In this document: in pieces, positions 23,549 to 55,554 of the stretch | How the letters are laid out: each line of letters begins with the position of its first letter | How positions within the stretch are numbered: the first letter of the stretch is position 1 | Source of the DNA: Fibrobacter sp. UWB4 | GTDB taxonomy: Bacteria; Fibrobacterota; Fibrobacteria; Fibrobacterales; Fibrobacteraceae | Assembly (NCBI RefSeq): GCF_002210345.1 | Contig: NZ_MWQI01000002.1 | Span: forward strand, 62,001 to 126,000 | Direction of reading: 5' to 3' | Length of the DNA: 64,000 nucleotides | Position numbers and translations under genes: made by a program | Notes under the pieces: model-generated | The model's database searches: none | The model's input: the letters and a program-made list of their open reading frames with translations, nothing else | Told to the model about the DNA's origin: nothing

Positions 23549-24358
23549 CTACAATAAATCCGGCAATCGGCTTTTTGCAACAGCCTGATTCACGCCAACA
23601 CCCGGATATTCAGGGAAAAATTCTTCGGCCATGCGGTACCACGTAAGCGCACGAGGAATGTCGTTTTCAAGATACAGATTGCCGATATCAAATGCGGCAA
23701 GCCCTATGAACTGTCGTGTTTCAAGAGGCTTAAATTCAAGACCGGTCCAGGGACCTTTTTGGTACTTTTCACGGTATTCTTCATCGGTGTAGGTAAAGCC
23801 GCGACGGTTCGGTTCCAGGTTCACAAAACTGTCCGAGGTGCCGTAACGCAAAAAGACGTGTCCCGGAAGGAGAATGGCGTCGAGAGGCAAACCGCGCACT
23901 TCGGCCACCATGAGCGCAAGCCACGATAGCCCCATGCAGCCGGACTTTCTGTTTACAAGAACGCGAAGCGGGAGCACGGATTCTTTTGCAACCGCAGCCT
24001 CGCCCGCCCCGGCAAATTCGATATTCCAAAATTGCCAAAGCAGATTTTTTAGGGATTGCAAAGTATCGTGATTCACTGCGACACTGCTATCAAAATAAGC
24101 AAGCCCCGCATGCCAATCGCTAACAGAATCAAGGCAACCCGGCGCACGTTCTTCAAAAACGCAAGCCATTTCGCGATAGCTCATGGACTCGTTCTTCCCG
24201 TTCCAAAGCAGAAACGGGAGTGCAATTACAAGCGTCGCGAGGAAAAGCAGCCAGAATAGTTTGGACGAGAGACGAAAGACGAGAGACGAAAGACCCTTCT
24301 CTAGTCTTTCGTCTGTAACGAGCTTCGCGAGCGTTCTTTCGTCTAGAAGCCGTCCCAT
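23549..24358 (-). CDS. Membrane-anchored transglutaminase-like (SirB1-type) protein
   Basis: 269 residues: one N-terminal membrane segment (KLFWLLFLATLVIALPFLLW), then a transglutaminase-like domain with Cys in SGCMGLSW, His in LLPGHVFLRYG and an acidic residue in VNLEPN, and a C-terminal TPR-like stretch (IPRALTWYRMAEEFFPEYPG). The family folds like papain-type proteases and transglutaminases; SirB1-type members are mostly of unknown function. It overlaps the end of the AlgX-like gene by 16 bases and precedes the lipoprotein array, so co-transcription is likely. The first ~33 residues are encoded by an interspersed repeat (24264-24346), and ATG 24358 is the only visible start, so the N-terminus seems to have been created or replaced by the repeat. 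Confidence 0.7.
   Translation of the reverse strand: MGRLLDERTLAKLVTDERLEKGLSSLVFRLSSKLFWLLFLATLVIALPFLLWNGKNESMSYREMACVFEERAPGCLDSVSDWHAGLAYFDSSVAVNHDTLQSLKNLLWQFWNIEFAGAGEAAVAKESVLPLRVLVNRKSGCMGLSWLALMVAEVRGLPLDAILLPGHVFLRYGTSDSFVNLEPNRRGFTYTDEEYREKYQKGPWTGLEFKPLETRQFIGLAAFDIGNLYLENDIPRALTWYRMAEEFFPEYPGVGVNQAVAKSRLPDLL
24264..24346. repeat. AGACGAAAGA-type repeat at a gene junction
   Basis: On the minus strand AGACGAAAGAACG, then a variable centre, then ACAGACGAAAGACTAGAG, and further direct copies of CGTCTTTCGTCTCTCGTC. It has the same framework as elements inside the radical SAM gene (29176-29219) and hrpB (54067-54110). It spans the stop of the AlgX-like gene and the first codons of the transglutaminase-like gene. 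Confidence 0.7.
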
Positions 24359-26304
24359 TCCATCGGGCTTTGCCAGTAGTCGCGAGCGGTCATCATGTAA
24401 ATCACGAGACGCTTGCTCAGCATGTCCTTTTTCATCTTCTTGAGGCGAGCGCGAACGCCAGGGCCACCGCCCCAGCTCGTAAGCACCTGCACATCAAGCC
24501 CCGTTGCATAAGCAAGCAGAGAACCCGGGCCACCGCTCTTCTGGTCCACAGATTCAAACACGCCCGTGAAAGAATCGCCCATCAAGAGGATCGGTGCATT
24601 TTTGCCGCCCTTGTAAGCCTTGTCGCCCTTGTAGATTTTCATGCCTGCAAGAGTATCGGCAGCATACTTGGACTTTTCCTTATCCGGCAAGTGAGCGACC
24701 AAGTCCCCTTCGCGCAGCACTACCGTATCCTTCATCACGAGGCTACCCGGTTGCGGATTCGCATCGGCATACCAGCTGTACTGCGTCACGCGAGAAGCAA
24801 GCTGTTCCATTGCAGCAAGCATGCCCGGCAGCGCCCAGTGCGTATCGTAGCGCTGGTAGCTGTAATGCGGAGCGTCATCGCCACTGCGGGCCGCCATCAG
24901 CGACGGGTAAAGGTCAAGTACGTCAATCCCAGCCGCAAGCATTTCACGGATAAATTCACGACCATTTACGTTCACGCACAAATCTGCAGGTGTTCCCTTT
25001 ACAAGCATGTCTGCATAAATTTCTTCTTTCACAGGAACCGGAACCACGAGAAGCTGAACATTCATGGAATCCAAGTACTGCTTGAGTTCAATCATTCTCG
25101 GAAGCGGATTGTGGAGGCTATCCTGACCGCTAATTTTATCTGCAACAAGATAGTTTGCATTGCGACGGAACCAAAGCATTCCGTTATCGGCCCAGGCATT
25201 CTGTTCCTTCGGGAGCTTCGAGAGTTTTTTCTTCAAGGCTTCGCGGAACTTCTTTGTCGCAGGCGTTGCAGGGCAGCTATTTTCCATAGCGGCAAGCGTT
25301 TCCAAACGAGCATAAGAACTCGTATCAAGGGTACGGTTCACAGGCACCACTTCGCCCGCAGCAGCAAGAGAATCAGCCACGGCAGCAGCACGGAGCTGTT
25401 CATCCGTCAAGCGGAACGCAGGAACTTCAAACGCCACCCACATAGGCTTACCCATCGGGTTTCCGCGCATCACTGCAAACGGACGATTAGCGCGGGAATT
25501 TTCCCAAATGGCACCTGGAGTATGTTGTTCCAAGTCCGTATTCAAAGTCGGATACCAGTAAGACGAGAGCGTACGCGCCCAGTTCATCGCCTCTTCACTG
25601 TTCATCTCGGCCGTCATGTAGTAGTTCAAGACTTCCGCAGACTCGCCGCCCGAAACAAACTTGAGTTTACCGTAAAATGGAGCACGGCCTGTCCAGACAG
25701 CAGGCATCACTTCGGCCCACCATTCAATTTTGCCCTGATTATCACCTGTTCCAGGCACTCCCCACAAACGACTTACAGTCTGGAAAGCGCGGAAAACATC
25801 AGGTTCATTCCACTTGACCGCCTCAACTTCATTCAAAGCCTTTGCAAGGGCATCATCGCCCGTCTGCGCATAGAGAATTTTCGCAAACGGTTCCCACGCA
25901 ATCGGAGCTACACCGGCAACAGCCTCCGGTTCGTATTCCGAAATCGAGTCGAGCATCGGGAAAGGGTATTCAGCAAGTTTTGCATTTGCCATTTTGCCCG
26001 TGTAATTTTCAGGCTTTTCATCCATACCCGCCATGCGAATCGGATTCGAAAAATACGCTGCAAAATCGAGAGCCGCAAGAGTTGGCTTCTCGACGACACG
26101 CACTTGCTTATCAAAATCAAGCACACGCATTTCAAAGACAGCGACTGGAGCAACAGGCATCGGAGGAATGTAATCCGGGGTCTTTGATTCAGCTGCTTGA
26201 ACGGAAGGATTGACAGACGGAGCTGCACAAGATGCAGCAAGGAACATACCCGCAGAAAGCCCTGCAAGGCACAAAAAAGAAGTCGATATTTTTTTCATTT
26301 TCAC
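24343..26304 (-). CDS. AlgX/AlgJ-like SGNH protein, exported
   Basis: 653 residues: signal with a weak lipobox (FLAASCAAP), an N-terminal half of ~330 residues I do not recognise, and a C-terminal AlgX/AlgJ-like SGNH domain. The second half shows LLMGDSFTGVFE (block I, Ser nucleophile) and YDTHWALPGM (Asp-x-His-Trp motif of AlgX/AlgJ), with the DTHW motif before the GDS motif as in that family. Characterised members O-acetylate alginate and other exopolysaccharides in the periplasm. First gene of the probable envelope operon leading into the transglutaminase-like protein and the four SGNH lipoproteins, which hints at shared work on a surface polymer. Start is ATG 26304; a second ATG six bases on is equally possible. 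Confidence 0.72.
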   Translation of the reverse strand: MKMKKISTSFLCLAGLSAGMFLAASCAAPSVNPSVQAAESKTPDYIPPMPVAPVAVFEMRVLDFDKQVRVVEKPTLAALDFAAYFSNPIRMAGMDEKPENYTGKMANAKLAEYPFPMLDSISEYEPEAVAGVAPIAWEPFAKILYAQTGDDALAKALNEVEAVKWNEPDVFRAFQTVSRLWGVPGTGDNQGKIEWWAEVMPAVWTGRAPFYGKLKFVSGGESAEVLNYYMTAEMNSEEAMNWARTLSSYWYPTLNTDLEQHTPGAIWENSRANRPFAVMRGNPMGKPMWVAFEVPAFRLTDEQLRAAAVADSLAAAGEVVPVNRTLDTSSYARLETLAAMENSCPATPATKKFREALKKKLSKLPKEQNAWADNGMLWFRRNANYLVADKISGQDSLHNPLPRMIELKQYLDSMNVQLLVVPVPVKEEIYADMLVKGTPADLCVNVNGREFIREMLAAGIDVLDLYPSLMAARSGDDAPHYSYQRYDTHWALPGMLAAMEQLASRVTQYSWYADANPQPGSLVMKDTVVLREGDLVAHLPDKEKSKYAADTLAGMKIYKGDKAYKGGKNAPILLMGDSFTGVFESVDQKSGGPGSLLAYATGLDVQVLTSWGGGPGVRARLKKMKKDMLSKRLVIYMMTARDYWQSPMEWDGF

Positions 26305-27476: not shown

Positions 27477-28517
27477 ATGCTGAAAATTCTATTCGCACCG
27501 CTACAAGGTTACACGACGGGCATTTATCGAAAAGCCCACGCTGAAATCTTTGGCGGTGTTGACGCCTATTACACTCCATTCTTGCGGATTGAAAACGGTA
27601 AGCCGCGCGAAAAAGATTTGCGGGATTTAGAAATTGCGAATGCAGATTGCGCAAATGTAAGATGCGCGGGCATCGCGGAAGGAATTGCGCGCGACGGGAA
27701 TGCGCGCAAGGAGAACTGCGCGGGCTACAAAGTCGTTCCGCAGATTATTGCGAACAGCGTCGATGAATTTAAAATCCTTGCAGAAGCGCTAATCGCCAAA
27801 GGTTACACGGAAATCGACTTCAACATGGGTTGCCCCTTTCCAATGCAAGTCAACCGCCATCGCGGTGCCGGACTTTTAAGCGACATACAGGCCGTCCAAG
27901 AAATCATGGACGAAATCAGGAAATTGTCTAGCGTTACGAACGGAACCGCGCCGATAAAATTTTCCGTCAAGATGCGCCTTGGACAGGACTCCCCCAACGA
28001 GGCATTCGCACTTCTCCCGATTCTAAACGAAGCGCCACTCACGCATATCACGCTCCACCCAAGACTCGGCAAACAACAGTACAAAGGCGCAATCGACTTC
28101 AAATCGTTCGAAAAATTTTATGAGGAATGCCGTCATCCACTCGTTTACAACGGCGACATCACAAGCGTTTCGCAAATCTGTGAAATGGAACGACACTACC
28201 CGAAGCTCGCAGGCGTGATGATTGGCCGCGGACTTCTCGCGAAACCAAGTTTAGCAGCGGAATACAAGGGATTGCGCGATATAAATAGCGCCGCCACCAC
28301 GCAGGATTTTCTCGGCAAACTTTTTCAGATGCACCAGGTCATTTTCGACCACGCTTGCAAAACATACCAAGGCGACAGCCAGATTCTCTCGCACGTACAA
28401 AATTTCTGGGAATATCTCGAACCAAGCATTCCCAAAAAGATTTTCAAGAAAATCAAGAAAGCAGGCAAACTCAGCGAATACCAAGAAGCCATCATAGAGA
28501 TGAGGGGCCAGTCGTGA
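27477..28517 (+). CDS. tRNA-dihydrouridine synthase family protein
   Basis: 346 residues, FMN-dependent TIM barrel. It starts LKILFAPLQGYTTGIYRKAH (family L-A-P-M-x-G-x-T) and has IDFNMGCPFPMQV with the catalytic Cys, KFSVKMRLG, LTHITLHPRLGKQQY with the FMN-binding His region, LVYNGDI and GVMIGRGLL. It reduces uridines in the tRNA D-loop; the position modified cannot be told. Residues about 55-80 (IANADCANVRCAGIAEGIARDGNARKENCAG) form a Cys/Arg-rich insertion before the conserved VVPQII strand and may be foreign sequence. The final codons overlap the GTG start of the radical SAM gene (GTGA). No good Shine-Dalgarno precedes ATG 27477. Confidence 0.9.
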   Translation: MLKILFAPLQGYTTGIYRKAHAEIFGGVDAYYTPFLRIENGKPREKDLRDLEIANADCANVRCAGIAEGIARDGNARKENCAGYKVVPQIIANSVDEFKILAEALIAKGYTEIDFNMGCPFPMQVNRHRGAGLLSDIQAVQEIMDEIRKLSSVTNGTAPIKFSVKMRLGQDSPNEAFALLPILNEAPLTHITLHPRLGKQQYKGAIDFKSFEKFYEECRHPLVYNGDITSVSQICEMERHYPKLAGVMIGRGLLAKPSLAAEYKGLRDINSAATTQDFLGKLFQMHQVIFDHACKTYQGDSQILSHVQNFWEYLEPSIPKKIFKKIKKAGKLSEYQEAIIEMRGQS

Positions 28518-29452
28518 ACAGCGTCTACATCGAAATCACGAATGTTTGCAACTTGCATTGCAGTTTTTGCCCCTGCGGAACCGCCGCAGACAACGGATAT
28601 GCCGACAGCGGAATTGCGGAAGAAAATTCGTCAACGTCCACGAACCGCACGTTCATGGATTCCAAGCTGTTCGAAGCATGCATCACAGACGCTCAAGAAA
28701 TCGGAGCGACCAACGTCTACTTTCATGTTCTCGGTGAACCCACGCTCCATCCTGGTTTTGCACATTACGTCAAGAAATTAGAACAAACGCCATTAAAGCT
28801 CACGCTCACAACAAACGGCACAACGATTGAACGCACAGGCCGTCAAATTCTCGCGTCACCCGCCGTTCGCCAAGTCAACTTTTCGACACACGCCTACGCA
28901 GAACTCCCCCGCGAAACCGCTGAACGATATTTGCAAAATGTGCTGGATTTTTGCCGTCTCGCGATTGTCGAGCGCCCCGATCTCTACATCAATTTGCGAT
29001 TGTGGAATGTCGGCGCCGAAGATGCCTCCTCGTGGAACAGCTACATGCTTAAACGCATCCACGAGACTTTTGGCGTTGATATCACGCCCGGGCATTTCTG
29101 CAGTCGCCACAAGAGTTTCAACATCACCGGCCGCCTCTATTTGCACGAAGACACAAGATTTGAATGGCCAAGCATAGACGAAAGAACGGGCAAAGCCCTA
29201 CAGACGAGAGACGAAAGAATCGCAGGCACGTGCCGTGCGCTTGACACTCATATTGCAATACTCCACGATGGGCGCGTTGTCGCCTGCTGCCTTGACCACA
29301 GCGGACAAATTACGCTCGGTCACATCACCGAACAAAGCCTTGCCGAAATTTTAGAAAGCCCACTCGCGCAAAACATAAAAGAAGGGTTCGCGCAGCACGA
29401 ACTACGCCACCCTTTTTGCCAAACCTGCAGTTTTTGCAAACGGTTTAAATAA
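28514..29452 (+). CDS. Radical SAM / SPASM-type protein
   Basis: 312 residues. The N-terminus holds the radical SAM cluster motif CNLHCSFC (about residues 12-19), then YFHVLGEPTLHPG and LTTNGT, typical of the fold. The C-terminal part has a SPASM-like set of cysteines (GTCRALD, VACCLDHSG, FCQTCSFCKRF) for auxiliary clusters. Such enzymes modify peptides or small molecules, or mature other enzymes; the target is unknown. The GTG start overlaps the stop of the dihydrouridine synthase gene, so they are translationally coupled, a hint of a function in RNA modification. An interspersed repeat lies in frame at 29176-29219, giving DERTGKALQTRDER in the protein. Confidence 0.82.
   Translation: MNSVYIEITNVCNLHCSFCPCGTAADNGYADSGIAEENSSTSTNRTFMDSKLFEACITDAQEIGATNVYFHVLGEPTLHPGFAHYVKKLEQTPLKLTLTTNGTTIERTGRQILASPAVRQVNFSTHAYAELPRETAERYLQNVLDFCRLAIVERPDLYINLRLWNVGAEDASSWNSYMLKRIHETFGVDITPGHFCSRHKSFNITGRLYLHEDTRFEWPSIDERTGKALQTRDERIAGTCRALDTHIAILHDGRVVACCLDHSGQITLGHITEQSLAEILESPLAQNIKEGFAQHELRHPFCQTCSFCKRFK
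29176..29219 (+). repeat. AGACGAAAGAACGGGC repeat within the radical SAM gene
   Basis: The 36 bases 29183-29218 are identical to 54073-54108 in hrpB. Both are read in the same frame and give ERTGKALQTRDER. Between the two AGACGAAAGA-like ends lies GGGCAAAGCCC, a short palindrome. Confidence 0.85.
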
Positions 29453-42549: not shown

Positions 42550-43421
42550 ACCGAGAAAGAGACTGCGCGAAGCCCGCGCCTAGCGCCAAAGCTCACGGCG
42601 TTGCCCGTGTGATTTCTAAGCGCGGTTTTTGCAGCAGAAGCCAAGCAGAAAACCTGGTCCGCGAGGGCCGGGTTTCTTTGCGTGGTAAAATCGTCCGCGA
42701 TCCGGACACTCCCGCTCGCGAAAATGATGAAATTTGCGTTGACGGAAAGCATGTAAAAGCAAGCGAGTTCGTTTACTTTATGATGAACAAGCCGCGTGGC
42801 TACGTCACTACGGCAAGCGACGAGAAAGGGCGCGCAACCGTCATGGACCTTTTCCGCGAGCAATACGCCAAGATGTTCCCCGGCAAGCCCGTGCCACACA
42901 TATCGCCCGTTGGCAGACTCGATGCAGCCAGCGAAGGGCTATTGTTATTTACAAATGACACGCAATGGGCAGACGCTTTGCTGAATCCGCAAGAGTCGCG
43001 CGATTCAAAGGCAGGAATGACAAGCGCAAGCGTCATCCTGAGTCCCGGAACGGAGTCCGGGATAAACTACGCGAAGTATCCAGTAAAGATCCAGCATACA
43101 AAAATCTACCGGGTGCAGGTCGCAGGAAAGCCAACTGCGGCGGAACTTTCGCAAATGGAAGCGGGTTTCAATGTTCCGCCACGCGTCTTTGGCGAACCCG
43201 AAGAATTCATGCACGCCGTCAGCGCCAAGCTCTACAGCGCAGGCGAAAAGAACTGCTGGCTCGAAATCACTTTGGACGAAGGCAAAAATCGTGAAATCCG
43301 CCGAATGCTCGCGAAGCTCGGCTACGAGGTTTTACGCCTTGTGCGCATAAAGTTCAGCAATTACGAATTGGGCGATTTAAAGCAAGGCTGCATCAAAAAA
43401 ATTGACGCCCCGCAGCATTAA
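42513..43421 (+). CDS. RluB/RsuA-type pseudouridine synthase
   Basis: 302 residues. An N-terminal S4 RNA-binding domain (RVISKRGFCSRSQAENLVREGRVSLRG) precedes the synthase domain with the catalytic Asp in HISPVGRLDAASEGLLLFTND, and later KIYRVQV, LDEGKNREIRRMLAKLGYEVLRLVRI. It isomerises uridine in rRNA. Between LLNPQESRD and KYPVKIQHTKIYRVQV lies an insertion of ~25 residues encoded by a GTCATCCTGAG-type repeat. The start is uncertain: ATG 42513 is the only ATG in frame and overlaps hisC by 37 bases; a GTG at about 42609 (V-I-S-K) is the alternative, but would trim the S4 domain. Confidence 0.85.
   Translation: MPRKHQGISRQVNRERDCAKPAPSAKAHGVARVISKRGFCSRSQAENLVREGRVSLRGKIVRDPDTPARENDEICVDGKHVKASEFVYFMMNKPRGYVTTASDEKGRATVMDLFREQYAKMFPGKPVPHISPVGRLDAASEGLLLFTNDTQWADALLNPQESRDSKAGMTSASVILSPGTESGINYAKYPVKIQHTKIYRVQVAGKPTAAELSQMEAGFNVPPRVFGEPEEFMHAVSAKLYSAGEKNCWLEITLDEGKNREIRRMLAKLGYEVLRLVRIKFSNYELGDLKQGCIKKIDAPQH
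43012..43094 (+). repeat. Repeat element in frame inside the pseudouridine synthase gene
   Basis: GGAATGACAAGC, then GCGTCATCCTGAGTCCCGGAACGG and a closing GGGATAAACTACGCGAAGTATCCAGT. CCCGGA / TCCGGG forms a stem. It has the GTCATCCTGAG...GAAG-ATCC framework of the intergenic repeats and adds SASVILSPGTESGINYA to the protein. Confidence 0.7.
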
Positions 43422-52250: not shown

Positions 52251-52338
52251 GAATCAAAGATACAAAAGGCTATCCCCCTGCATTTTCGCAATACTCCAAA
52301 AAATTGCTATATTAGGGATACTCAAAATTGAGGTGATT

Positions 52339-52803
52339 ATGTTAGACTTTTTAGCAAACAACTGGCCCTACCTGGTTATCCTGGTCGTGGTCGTCGCTTT
52401 ATTTTTTATTATCCGTGGTGCACTCAAGGGTCTGAAAGCCAGAAGCCCGTTCAACATGGAAAACATTCGCAAGAGCACCGAACCGAACTTCCTCGCCCTC
52501 CAGCAGAAGTCCAAGGCTTTGCTTGCCGATGCCGACATGGTCTGCGAAATCAAGCCGGGTAGCGATCAGGTCATCCCGAAAAAGGAAGATGTCAAGTTTT
52601 TCCGTCGTGCTGTTTCACAGAAGTTTAAGCTCGCCGTGTTTCAGGTTCCTGGTACAAACAAGGTCGTTTTCTTCTTCTGCAAGACCGAAGCCGGCATCAA
52701 GAGGAGACTCCAGAACCTGGTCATCAACCAGAAGTTCCGCGAAGGTAAGCCTCCTTACATCGACGCTGCTACTGGTGAAAAGCTGAGATACCCGAAGGCT
52801 TAG
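52339..52803 (+). CDS. Single-span membrane protein of unknown function
   Basis: 154 residues. One N-terminal membrane segment (WPYLVILVVVVALFFIIRG) followed by a basic soluble part (FRRAVSQKFKLAVFQVPGTNKVVFFFCKTEAGIKRRLQNL) without a recognised family. GAGG five bases before ATG 52339 sets the start. Strong codon bias suggests good expression. It is followed by a repeat and a terminator. Confidence 0.7.
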   Translation: MLDFLANNWPYLVILVVVVALFFIIRGALKGLKARSPFNMENIRKSTEPNFLALQQKSKALLADADMVCEIKPGSDQVIPKKEDVKFFRRAVSQKFKLAVFQVPGTNKVVFFFCKTEAGIKRRLQNLVINQKFREGKPPYIDAATGEKLRYPKA

Positions 52804-52804
52804 T

Positions 52805-52852
52805 CAGACAAAAGACCGCTTCGCTCACAGACTAGAGACGAGAGAAGCGAAA
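52805..52852 (+). repeat. Intergenic AGACGAGAGA-type repeat
   Basis: AAAAGACCGCTTCGCTCACAGACTAGAGACGAGAGAAGCG: AAAGA...ACAGAC-TAGAGACGAGAG follows the framework of the copies in the radical SAM gene, in hrpB and at 24264-24346. This copy lies between genes. Confidence 0.6.
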
Positions 52853-52926: not shown

Positions 52927-55554
52927 ATGCGCACGTACAAAGATCTAGCCATTGCCGAAGAAGAACAAAAGCTCATAGACGCTGTAAACAGGACGAACAA
53001 CTTGCTCGTCGAAGCGCCCACCGGTAGCGGTAAGTCGTTGTACATTCCGTGGTTCTTGAGCAATCACTTTAGCGGTCGCATTGTCGTCTTGCAGCCAAGA
53101 CGCATCGCAGCACTTGCACTTGCACAGTACTCTGCAAAACTTCACAACGAGCCTTGCGGAAAAACAGTCGGTTATCAGTTCCGCCAGGACAGCTGCAAGT
53201 CCAGCGCTACGCGAATCTTGTTCCAGACGTACGGTAACTTTTTGCAGGAACTTTTGCACGGCAAGATGGACGCTGAATGGGTCATCTTCGATGAATACCA
53301 CGAACGCAAGGCCGACATGGACTTGCTCTTTGCGTATCTGCTAAAATTGCAAGAATCAAGCCGCGCATTAGAAAGTAAAAACATCAAAGCGCCGAGAATC
53401 GCCGTCATGAGCGCAAAGCTCAACCGCGAAGAAATGGAGCAGGCGCTCGGCGTCAAATGTCTGGAACTCGGGCATCCGCTTTATCCCGTACAAATTCTTT
53501 ACCAGAAGCCCGCCGCAGGCACAAACATTAGCGCAGGCCAGGGAATCGAAAGCGAAGTAGTTCGCGCATTGCGCACTTTATACCGCAATAACATTTGGCA
53601 GACAACGCTCGTATTCTTGCCAGGCAAAGCAGAAATCGCAAGATGCCACACCGCCGCAAGCGAAGCTCTTGGCGCAAACGTCGCCGAGTTCCTTGAACTC
53701 TACGGCGGTCAGGACCGAGAAACGCAAGACCGCATCTTTGAAGAAACGGAACGCCCGCGCGTCATCTTTACAACCAACATTGCAGAAACGTCTATCACCG
53801 TGCCAAACGTCACAGGCGTTGTCGATAGCGGCATCGAGCGCGTAAACGAATATGACGACAGCAAGAAAGTGAACGTACTGCGCACTCTCCCGATTTCGCT
53901 GCAAAATGCAATCCAACGCAGTGGCCGTAGCGGCCGTACGCAAAACGGTTGCGCCATCCGCCTCTGGACCGAAGAAGCCGAGAAGCACATGCCGCAAGGC
54001 ATCGTGCCCGAAGTCCTGCAAATCGAACCGTCGGAACTTTTATTGCAAAAAGCCGCACTTGAAGAAGATGAGAGAACGGGCAAAGCCCTACAGACGAGAG
54101 ACGAAAGAGGCGAGTGTGCTAGAATAAAACTGCCCACGGCAATTCCAGAAGTGCGCGAAAAAATCGCTACAGCGATGCTCGAAAAATTCGGCATGCTGCA
54201 AGACAGCCGCATCACTGAACTCGGCAAGCGAGCCATTCAAACACCGATTTCAAGCATTCCGCTCGCATTGATTTTAGCAAAAGCAACAAGCGCCGCAGAC
54301 CTCCCCGACTTGCTCCTCGCCGCCATGGCATGGATCCATTCCGGAACTGAATTTATCCAGAAATCTAAAAACACGCTCAACTTGCTCACGCTTGCAAGCG
54401 ATACACTATCAAAAGCCATCAGCGCTCCGCGAGAAGTTTCGTTCACACTAAAGCAACTGCGAGATTTTCGCGACTCATTAAAGGAGATGCCCGTTCAAGA
54501 CGGGCATGACAACCAACGTCATTGCGAACCCCAAAGGGGTGTGGCAATCCATGAAGTTGTCATTCGCAACTTACTAAACGCATTCCCAGACGCACTCGCG
54601 ACACCAAGCGGTAATGTCTACAAGTTGAGCAACGGCAACACCATTCGATTGCAAGTCGCAGAGCCGCCTTATGCATTGCTCGCGCTCTCCATGCTCCGCA
54701 CCGAAGCAGGCGCCAAATCAGAAATGCGCGTGAACCTTTACGCTCCAGTGCCCAAAGAATTGCTCGATGGAGAAAGCGAAATCATCCGCTATGAACTGCT
54801 TTGGCGGAGCGGTCAAGAACGCTTCATCGGCGTCGAGATTCACAAATGCGAAAGCCCCAACGGCGACATTCGCGAAACTAGCCGCAAAGAAATTCTCCCG
54901 CAAGAAGCTTCGCCAAAAGTTCTCGAAAAGCTCAAGGAACTCACCGCCGATGCCTGGCGCGACAAGCTCGAAAAAGAAAACTGGACCGGCCGTTACCTCA
55001 CCGAAAACATCCAGACGCTCCTCATCAAGATGCGCCTTGCCGCAAAGCTTTACCCGGAATACAGCCTCCCGGAATTTAACGAAGAGGACATGGATCTTAT
55101 CCTGAACGAGCTTACAGACGGCATATTCCTATTGCGCGACATCAACGAAGACCGTTACCGCAACATTGTCGAAGACTACTTCGGCAAATCCATGTTAGCA
55201 TGGCTGCAAAAGACGTTCCCCGATCATTATGTACTGCCAAACGGCAAGCGCGCCCGCTATAGCTATCAAGAAGTCGCCACCGCCGATGAACAAGGCAACG
55301 GCAAAATTGTTCAAAGCGCGGACGGCGTACTCGTCGAGATTTCGGCGCGAATCGAAGACTTTATGCAGCTCCGTGGCGAGCACAAAATTGCTGACGGCAA
55401 ACTCAAAGTGCGTTACGACATTCTAGCGCCGAACTTCCGCACGATTCAAAAGACATGGGATCTCACGAGCTTCTGGCAGAACACCTACGCCGAAGTCCGC
55501 AAAGAATTACGAGGAAGATACCCAAAGCACCCGTGGCCTGAAAAAATCATGTAA
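52927..55554 (+). CDS. hrpB: ATP-dependent RNA helicase HrpB
   Basis: 875 residues, DEAH-box family. Motifs: VEAPTGSGKSLYIPWFL (Walker A), VIFDEYHERKADMDLLFAYL (DExH, here DEYH), VMSAKL, LVFLPGKAEIARC, VIFTTNIAETSITVPNVTGVVDSG and QRSGRSGRTQNGCAIRLW (motif VI), then an HA2-like region and a C-terminal HrpB domain (PNGKRARYSYQEV ... RYDILAPNFRTIQKTWDLTSFWQNTYAEVRKELRGRYPKHPWPE). Two repeat-derived insertions interrupt it: EEDERTGKALQTRDERGEC (about residue 380) and EMPVQDGHDNQRHCEPQRGV (about residue 520). Both keep the frame and lie outside the conserved motifs, so the protein may remain functional. Confidence 0.92.
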   Translation: MRTYKDLAIAEEEQKLIDAVNRTNNLLVEAPTGSGKSLYIPWFLSNHFSGRIVVLQPRRIAALALAQYSAKLHNEPCGKTVGYQFRQDSCKSSATRILFQTYGNFLQELLHGKMDAEWVIFDEYHERKADMDLLFAYLLKLQESSRALESKNIKAPRIAVMSAKLNREEMEQALGVKCLELGHPLYPVQILYQKPAAGTNISAGQGIESEVVRALRTLYRNNIWQTTLVFLPGKAEIARCHTAASEALGANVAEFLELYGGQDRETQDRIFEETERPRVIFTTNIAETSITVPNVTGVVDSGIERVNEYDDSKKVNVLRTLPISLQNAIQRSGRSGRTQNGCAIRLWTEEAEKHMPQGIVPEVLQIEPSELLLQKAALEEDERTGKALQTRDERGECARIKLPTAIPEVREKIATAMLEKFGMLQDSRITELGKRAIQTPISSIPLALILAKATSAADLPDLLLAAMAWIHSGTEFIQKSKNTLNLLTLASDTLSKAISAPREVSFTLKQLRDFRDSLKEMPVQDGHDNQRHCEPQRGVAIHEVVIRNLLNAFPDALATPSGNVYKLSNGNTIRLQVAEPPYALLALSMLRTEAGAKSEMRVNLYAPVPKELLDGESEIIRYELLWRSGQERFIGVEIHKCESPNGDIRETSRKEILPQEASPKVLEKLKELTADAWRDKLEKENWTGRYLTENIQTLLIKMRLAAKLYPEYSLPEFNEEDMDLILNELTDGIFLLRDINEDRYRNIVEDYFGKSMLAWLQKTFPDHYVLPNGKRARYSYQEVATADEQGNGKIVQSADGVLVEISARIEDFMQLRGEHKIADGKLKVRYDILAPNFRTIQKTWDLTSFWQNTYAEVRKELRGRYPKHPWPEKIM
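54067..54110 (+). repeat. AGAACGGGC repeat in frame in hrpB
   Basis: Bases 54073-54108 are identical to 29183-29218 in the radical SAM gene. It adds ERTGKALQTRDER after an acidic stretch, in a loop region between the helicase core and the HA2-like part. Confidence 0.85.
54480..54556 (+). repeat. Two fused repeat elements in frame in hrpB
   Basis: AAGGAGATGCCCGTTCAAGACGGGCATGACAA (54480-54511), of the palindromic family, followed by CGTCATTGCGAACCCCAAAGGGGTGTGGCAATCC (about 54518-54551), the second family also seen at 36297-36329. Together they add about 25 residues to the helicase. Confidence 0.8.

Follow-up and report, generated by a model that had tools for sequence, protein, structure and literature searches.

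Two unrelated genes in the window (the whole 64-kb stretch of Fibrobacter DNA analyzed here) share a short piece of sequence. The original prediction named a 36-bp identity between 29183-29218, in a radical SAM gene, and 54073-54108, in hrpB. This is borne out, as is the claim that both segments are read in the same frame to give ERTGKALQTRDER. The repeat unit is longer than the 36 bp noted, however. It measures about 45 bp, with AGACGAR heptads flanking a short stem-loop on both sides. The two host genes and their copies are as follows.

28514..29452, + strand: host gene 1, radical SAM/SPASM protein of 312 aa (Pfam Radical_SAM 6-148, SPASM 240-305; genus orthologues)
29175..29218, + strand: repeat copy 1, TAGACGAAAGAACG-GGCAAAGCC-CTACAGACGAGAGACGAAAGA, translated DERTGKALQTRDER (sequence, family consensus)
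29188..29198, + strand: stem-loop of copy 1, GGGC-AAA-GCCC (fold and family-wide stem covariation)
52927..55554, + strand: host gene 2, ATP-dependent helicase HrpB of 875 aa (TIGR01970, 2e-98; Pfam HrpB_C)
54066..54108, + strand: repeat copy 2, in the HrpB loop after LLLQKAALE, translated DERTGKALQTRDER (sequence, orthologue alignment)
54078..54088, + strand: stem-loop of copy 2, GGGC-AAA-GCCC (fold)

The insert of the first host falls between the radical SAM and SPASM domains of the protein. The low-confidence stretches of the AlphaFold models coincide with the insert sites (approximately 215-244 in the radical SAM protein; 385-397 and 521-538 in HrpB, whose model is moderate overall, with a mean pLDDT of 65). 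The probability that a 36-bp identity arises by chance within 64 kb is of the order of 1e-12, so small that chance can be dismissed as its source. The same genome has a third copy, nearly identical to these two, at another place (G000:C3:105976, L005). An assembly artefact or a chance origin of the repeat is ruled out by the presence of copies in dozens of genomes.

The window holds more such sequence, with AGACGARAG occurring 13 times against 1.05 expected by chance. Relatives had been predicted at a gene junction (24264-24346) and between genes (52805-52852). The first is a real family member, reading TAGACGAAAGAACG-CTCGCGAAGCTCG-TTACAGACGAAAGACTAGAGA on the minus strand and then running into inverted heptads; the second, at 52804-52850, is a decayed one. 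Repeats of other families are also present.

24264..24345, - strand: gene-junction member of the family, with inverted heptads (sequence, fold)
52804..52850, + strand: decayed family member, adjoining the stop codon of gene 52333-52803
54483..54551, + strand: two other-family repeats in the second hypervariable loop of HrpB, GGAGATGCCCG..CGGGCATGACA and CGTCATTGCGAACCCC..GGGGTGTGGCAATCC (sequence)
43005..43064, + strand: other-family repeats (..GGCAGGAATGAC, GTCATCCTGAGT, CCCGGAACGGAGTCCGGGAT), in frame in the RluA-type pseudouridine synthase gene 42609-43421

The gene at 24343-26304 takes its stop codon from the junction repeat, whose TAG occupies 24343-24345. On the same strand as that repeat, the first 32 or so codons (MGRLLDERTLAKLVTDERLEKGLSSLVFRLSS) of a transglutaminase-like open reading frame (23549-24358) are apparently made of the repeat and its inverted heptads; the frame overlaps the end of the preceding gene, and its true start may be further inside. 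In HrpB, the two repeats at 54483-54551 stand in frame, back to back, and are translated ..RHCEPQRGVAIHE... The in-frame repeats of the pseudouridine synthase gene are of the GTCATCCTGAG and GGAATGAC types.

How widespread is the repeat? Searching the whole genome revealed a dispersed family, with 18 matches to the strict hairpin pattern (reversed-pattern control, 0) and about 80 places that match the 16-mer AGACGAGAGACGAAAG with at most one mismatch. The pattern AGAACG-n-CTACAGACGAGAG, scanned against one genome per species in approximately 85,000 species, returned at least 80 matches; among the matches listed, all were from Fibrobacter save one, which was from Fibrobacterales. A sample of 120 loci carrying 123 copies, drawn from among the matches listed in a scan, was studied through pattern searches and extracted sequence stretches, with genes called by our own codon-usage gene finder. 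The genomes compared are one per species, many of them drafts, and related species are non-independent samples. Strict copies number from 0 to 27 per sampled Fibrobacter genome, with zero in many complete genomes. Viral contigs gave no matches, and a phage origin was rejected on that ground.

The aligned copies have the consensus TTAGACGARAGAACG-stem-loop-CTACAGACGAGAGACGARAGA. What stays constant are the flanks, namely, the AGACGAR heptads, AACG 5' of the stem, and CTAC 3' of it. The stem of 4 to 5 bp varies freely in sequence among copies while its complementarity is kept. The middle part of nongenic copies is typically 11 nt long and comprises three free pairs, a near-constant C-G pair, and a TNY loop, all within a constant outer G-C pair. 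The three free pairs of 42 distinct 11-nt hairpins give 126 cells, of which 119 are Watson-Crick. Shuffled data average 50 and never exceed 69, and a slid register gives 35. The hairpin structure is thus conserved and its stem sequence free. Reading the stem as a UNCG tetraloop was rejected, as base 9 misfits; the apex is C(TNY)G. With regard to the terminal inverted repeats that mark a MITE, some copies span TTAGACGA to TCGTCTAA, although most do not. A second class (CTCGCAAGCTCG and kin) lacks the same simple stem. Inverted heptads lie within 165 bp of 37 of the 123 copies (control, 2), many of them at the 3' end of a convergent gene. Near position 1500 of one locus (L033), heptads, inverted heptads, and a T run can form a hairpin resembling an intrinsic terminator (AGACGAGA..TCTCGTCTTTTT). 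The Rfam covariance models gave no match to the repeat; the only Rfam match among the loci is a TPP riboswitch (RF00059; L102:3326-3429), away from the repeat.

Seventeen of the 123 copies lie inside genes, and a count of frame and orientation came out one-sided, with 17/17 in sense and only two frames in use, x-TA-G (LDERT..LQTRDER) and xx-T-AG (RREN..ATDERRE). In the third sense frame the leading TAG would read as a stop. Length follows a rule as well. The hairpin is divisible by 3 (9 or 12 nt) in 16/17 genic copies, compared with 13/106 nongenic ones (Fisher p = 2.2e-11), and the rule holds after near-duplicates are dropped (16/17 versus 12/97). Of 24 heptad matches in genes, 3 are antisense, and none of the genic hairpin copies uses the reverse strand. 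That strand also offers open frames, and the hydrophobic peptides it would encode are a plausible reason for the lack of antisense genic hairpins. The 17 copies represent some 13 distinct sites in at least nine gene families, with frames open throughout; as orthologous copies are non-independent, the number of sites is the fairer count. The hosts are CoaBC, RsgA, RlmL, an RluA-family synthase, HrpA (two loops), HrpB (two loops), CobA-HemD, an aminotransferase (two loops), the radical SAM protein, and a TolQ-like protein whose N terminus is possibly mis-started.

What lies at these positions in other species? The HrpB loop that follows LLLQKAALE, compared across 35 Fibrobacter proteins, ranges from 7 to 83 residues. 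Depending on the species it contains the window's repeat, a GTCATTGCGAGC..GCAATC repeat (..VIASEAKQSQ..), GATCCCCGCCTGCGCGGGGATGACA (..EIPACAGMT..), CCATGGACCCTATCAGTCG..GACTCCTTCCAGGG, TTCGACAAGCTCACCAACC, or mixtures of these. Repeats of all families are always in frame, and the repeat class has changed at least 14 times on a 32-species tree. The radical SAM loop (8 to 72 residues) and the linker of the essential CoaBC likewise hold different, unrelated repeat families in frame. That several such families occupy the same loops had gone unseen in the original prediction. Comparing orthologues with and without the insert thus finds HrpB filled differently or with a 7-residue loop, and presence or absence is clean at the 3' end of hisG (described below). 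From species to species, then, a given site may hold the repeat, hold something else, or be empty.

Could the peptide instead be an ancestral shared motif, the case against insertion that the original prediction itself had raised, or a selected protein tag? The HrpB codons that carry the window's repeat in the window's genome (G000) carry a GTCATTGCGA repeat in G001 and G013, the two closest to it on the tree (clade support, 99%), and this comparison refutes an ancestral shared peptide in HrpB. The radical SAM insert is older, given that heptad remnants occur at the site in many species and the same peptide is present in G001 and G005 and, altered, in G028; the DER-type sequence found there in many species is what an ancestral motif or tag has in its favor. 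Against it, the identity between unrelated genes reaches the level of codons and extends to intergenic copies, and in other species the same loop contains unrelated repeats or nothing. Taken as a whole, this explanation is almost certainly wrong.

Most copies are found elsewhere. The 106 of 123 that lie outside genes mostly adjoin a stop codon on its 3' side, in sense orientation. Of the intergenic copies, 97 are distinct. Sixty of these begin no more than 60 nt past the end of a gene on their own strand, and 4 are found where a gene on the other strand ends; in 23, the element's own TAG serves as the stop codon of the gene. Fixed distances to the stop codon, of 5 or 10 nt, are seen. In the window's genome, our gene caller places 3 of the 18 strict copies within genes (one at a predicted N terminus), and 11 of the remaining 15 lie at most 14 nt past a stop codon on the same strand. 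At the 3' end of hisG, the element sits directly at the stop codon in five species, with four different hairpins; in most other species the next gene starts 2 to 4 nt past the stop and there is no element. Neither a target-site duplication at the hisG site nor a clean right boundary of the element could be fixed, which weighs against the mobile-element reading given below.

Such positions raise the possibility of a functional RNA element of 3' untranslated regions, in which a stem of free sequence presents two single-stranded GACGARAG arms. The arms would serve a protein or the stability of the mRNA 3' end, and the genic copies would be rare escapes. The preference for sense gene ends (60 versus 4), the fixed stop-codon spacing, and a stem that covaries while the unpaired flanks stay constant all fit such a role, and an intrinsic terminator-like hairpin often comes next (L038, L041, and L156). 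The distribution fits it less well, being patchy, with no strict copies in many complete Fibrobacter genomes, a hisG 3' end that is mostly empty, a burst of copies in one lineage, and no Rfam match. A 3' role alone also leaves the entry of copies into open reading frames unexplained. We regard it as possible but doubtful as the full account; it is compatible with a mobile element, and the two are not exclusive.

The reading that we prefer, and that is very probably correct, is that the 36-bp segment belongs to a short hairpin repeat, dispersed in Fibrobacter, that behaves like a nonautonomous mobile element. The element would insert as a complete unit at many places, probably beside a TAG-like target, which would account for the stop-codon position, the orientation, and the two genic frames. 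Inside genes, purifying selection would spare insertions that are in frame, encode a hydrophilic peptide, and lie within a disordered loop or a linker between domains. If only these survive, such loops would come to gather and exchange several repeat families. The inserted peptide is probably functionless in itself. As a wider and much more tentative picture, the genus Fibrobacter may have shared “landing loops” in which unrelated palindromic repeats interchange in frame, one of them a stop-codon-seeking sense hairpin with a sequence-free stem that is copied by an undescribed mechanism.

How might the element move? The least certain step of the scheme is hairpin-guided single-strand transposition or copying, carried out by a putative enzyme acting in trans. 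Movement could also be a matter of recombination or gene conversion between heptad arrays, together with slippage, rather than transposition. The heptads do give homology on two sides, and the length of the arrays varies. Where different species carry the element at the 3' end of the same gene (L090/L142, L016/L091, and L100/L139), the flanks agree and the hairpin core is wholly different, which suggests either that the stem is swapped as a cassette or that insertion has occurred repeatedly. Recombination cannot, however, seed sites free of heptads, such as the hisG stop codon and the 7-residue HrpB loops. It may therefore explain turnover rather than first arrival, and as the whole of the movement we think it unlikely.

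Returning to a transposed element, is there a transposase to go with it? None tied to the element was found in the 38 and then 9 genomes searched for Y1 and RAYT (REP-associated tyrosine transposase) proteins. Y1 transposases occur in 11/38 genomes and are of the short IS200 type, and the element is absent beside Y1 genes in the loci examined. In a comparison of copy number by presence of a Y1 transposase the means are 11.0 and 5.7 (p = 0.047), yet several of the richest genomes, including the copy-rich G012, G018, G060, and G005, have none. A Y1/RAYT transposase was accordingly rejected as the mover, being of the IS200 type only, unflanked by the repeat, and not consistently linked to copy number.

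The same search bears on whether the repeat is a GTAG-type REP moved by a RAYT. In its reverse complement, a short hairpin stands on a GTAG foot. In the GTAG REPs of Pseudomonas, stems likewise vary with their complementarity kept. The GTAG/CGTC REP families and REPINs are hairpins of 20 to 40 bp that lie mostly 3' of genes, and GTAG REPs are described as supplying a TAG stop codon and as occurring within genes (Di Nocera et al. 2013, PMC3733652). The GTAG foot (CTAC 3' of the stem on the sense strand), the position 3' of genes, the TAG stop codons, and some intragenic copies are common ground. REPs also form inverted pairs, and here inverted partners lie within 165 bp in 37/123 copies (control, 2), many of them at the 3' end of a convergent gene. 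The Fibrobacter repeat differs in its strong sense orientation, its CGTCTYT heptads on both sides, and the lack of a RAYT in the genomes searched, for the Y1 proteins are only short IS200-type ones in 11/38 genomes with no adjoining element and the genomes richest in copies do without them. We consider this origin improbable. Fibrobacter is not mentioned in the GTAG REP survey (PMC3733652).

The original prediction likened the segment to a Rickettsia palindromic element (RPE). That likeness stands for the behavior in frame and at sites; mobility is inferred from the distribution, and the repeat is RPE-like without being an RPE. As reviewed in PMC10969869 and PMC3733652, RPEs are elements of about 100 to 150 bp with a conserved encoded peptide (Ogata et al. 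2000, 2002), and their hosts are obligate intracellular Alphaproteobacteria (PMC10969869). Both kinds of repeat are short dispersed palindromes of several families that use few frames and sit in frame in unrelated metabolic or housekeeping genes with insert-free orthologues (here HrpB, radical SAM, and CoaBC). The Fibrobacter repeat is set apart by its described length and structure (about 45 bp per unit, heptad arms, and a free stem), by lying mostly behind stop codons in sense, by its free-living gut host, and by a difference in hairpin length modulo 3 between genic and intergenic copies. It works like the RPEs, yet its sequence family and its anatomy are distinct from theirs. The STRR repeats of heterocystous cyanobacteria are tandem 7-bp units dispersed in intergenic DNA; the unit length is shared, but the heptads of Fibrobacter flank a stem-loop and occur in reading frames. 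A literature search, with subscription papers mostly outside its coverage, found no such repeat described for Fibrobacter.

In-frame repeat insertion has been regarded as a peculiarity of Rickettsia that goes with relaxed selection as an intracellular genome shrinks, and outside that genus intragenic REPs have been scattered cases. Here it is widespread in free-living gut bacteria with genomes of approximately 3.5 Mb, and essential enzymes are included. The value of the system is 3-fold. (i) With tens of related genomes available, each insertion can be dated on a tree. (ii) The length rule (a multiple of three in genes, 11 nt outside) is a natural experiment on selection after insertion. (iii) The shared loops illustrate a route from noncoding repeat to protein sequence.

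The burst of copies mentioned above was found in another genus of the family (G133). Its loci L324-L353 carry 57 copies with two dominant stems (GCACTACGTGC and GGCCTTTGGCC), and the two congeners sampled carry none, so that the burst looks recent. The contig ends of this genome were considered as a possible insertion sequence carrying the repeat and dismissed, the adjoining DNA being a mosaic of other short repeats. The G133 copies themselves sit within mosaics that include at least four further kinds of short repeat.
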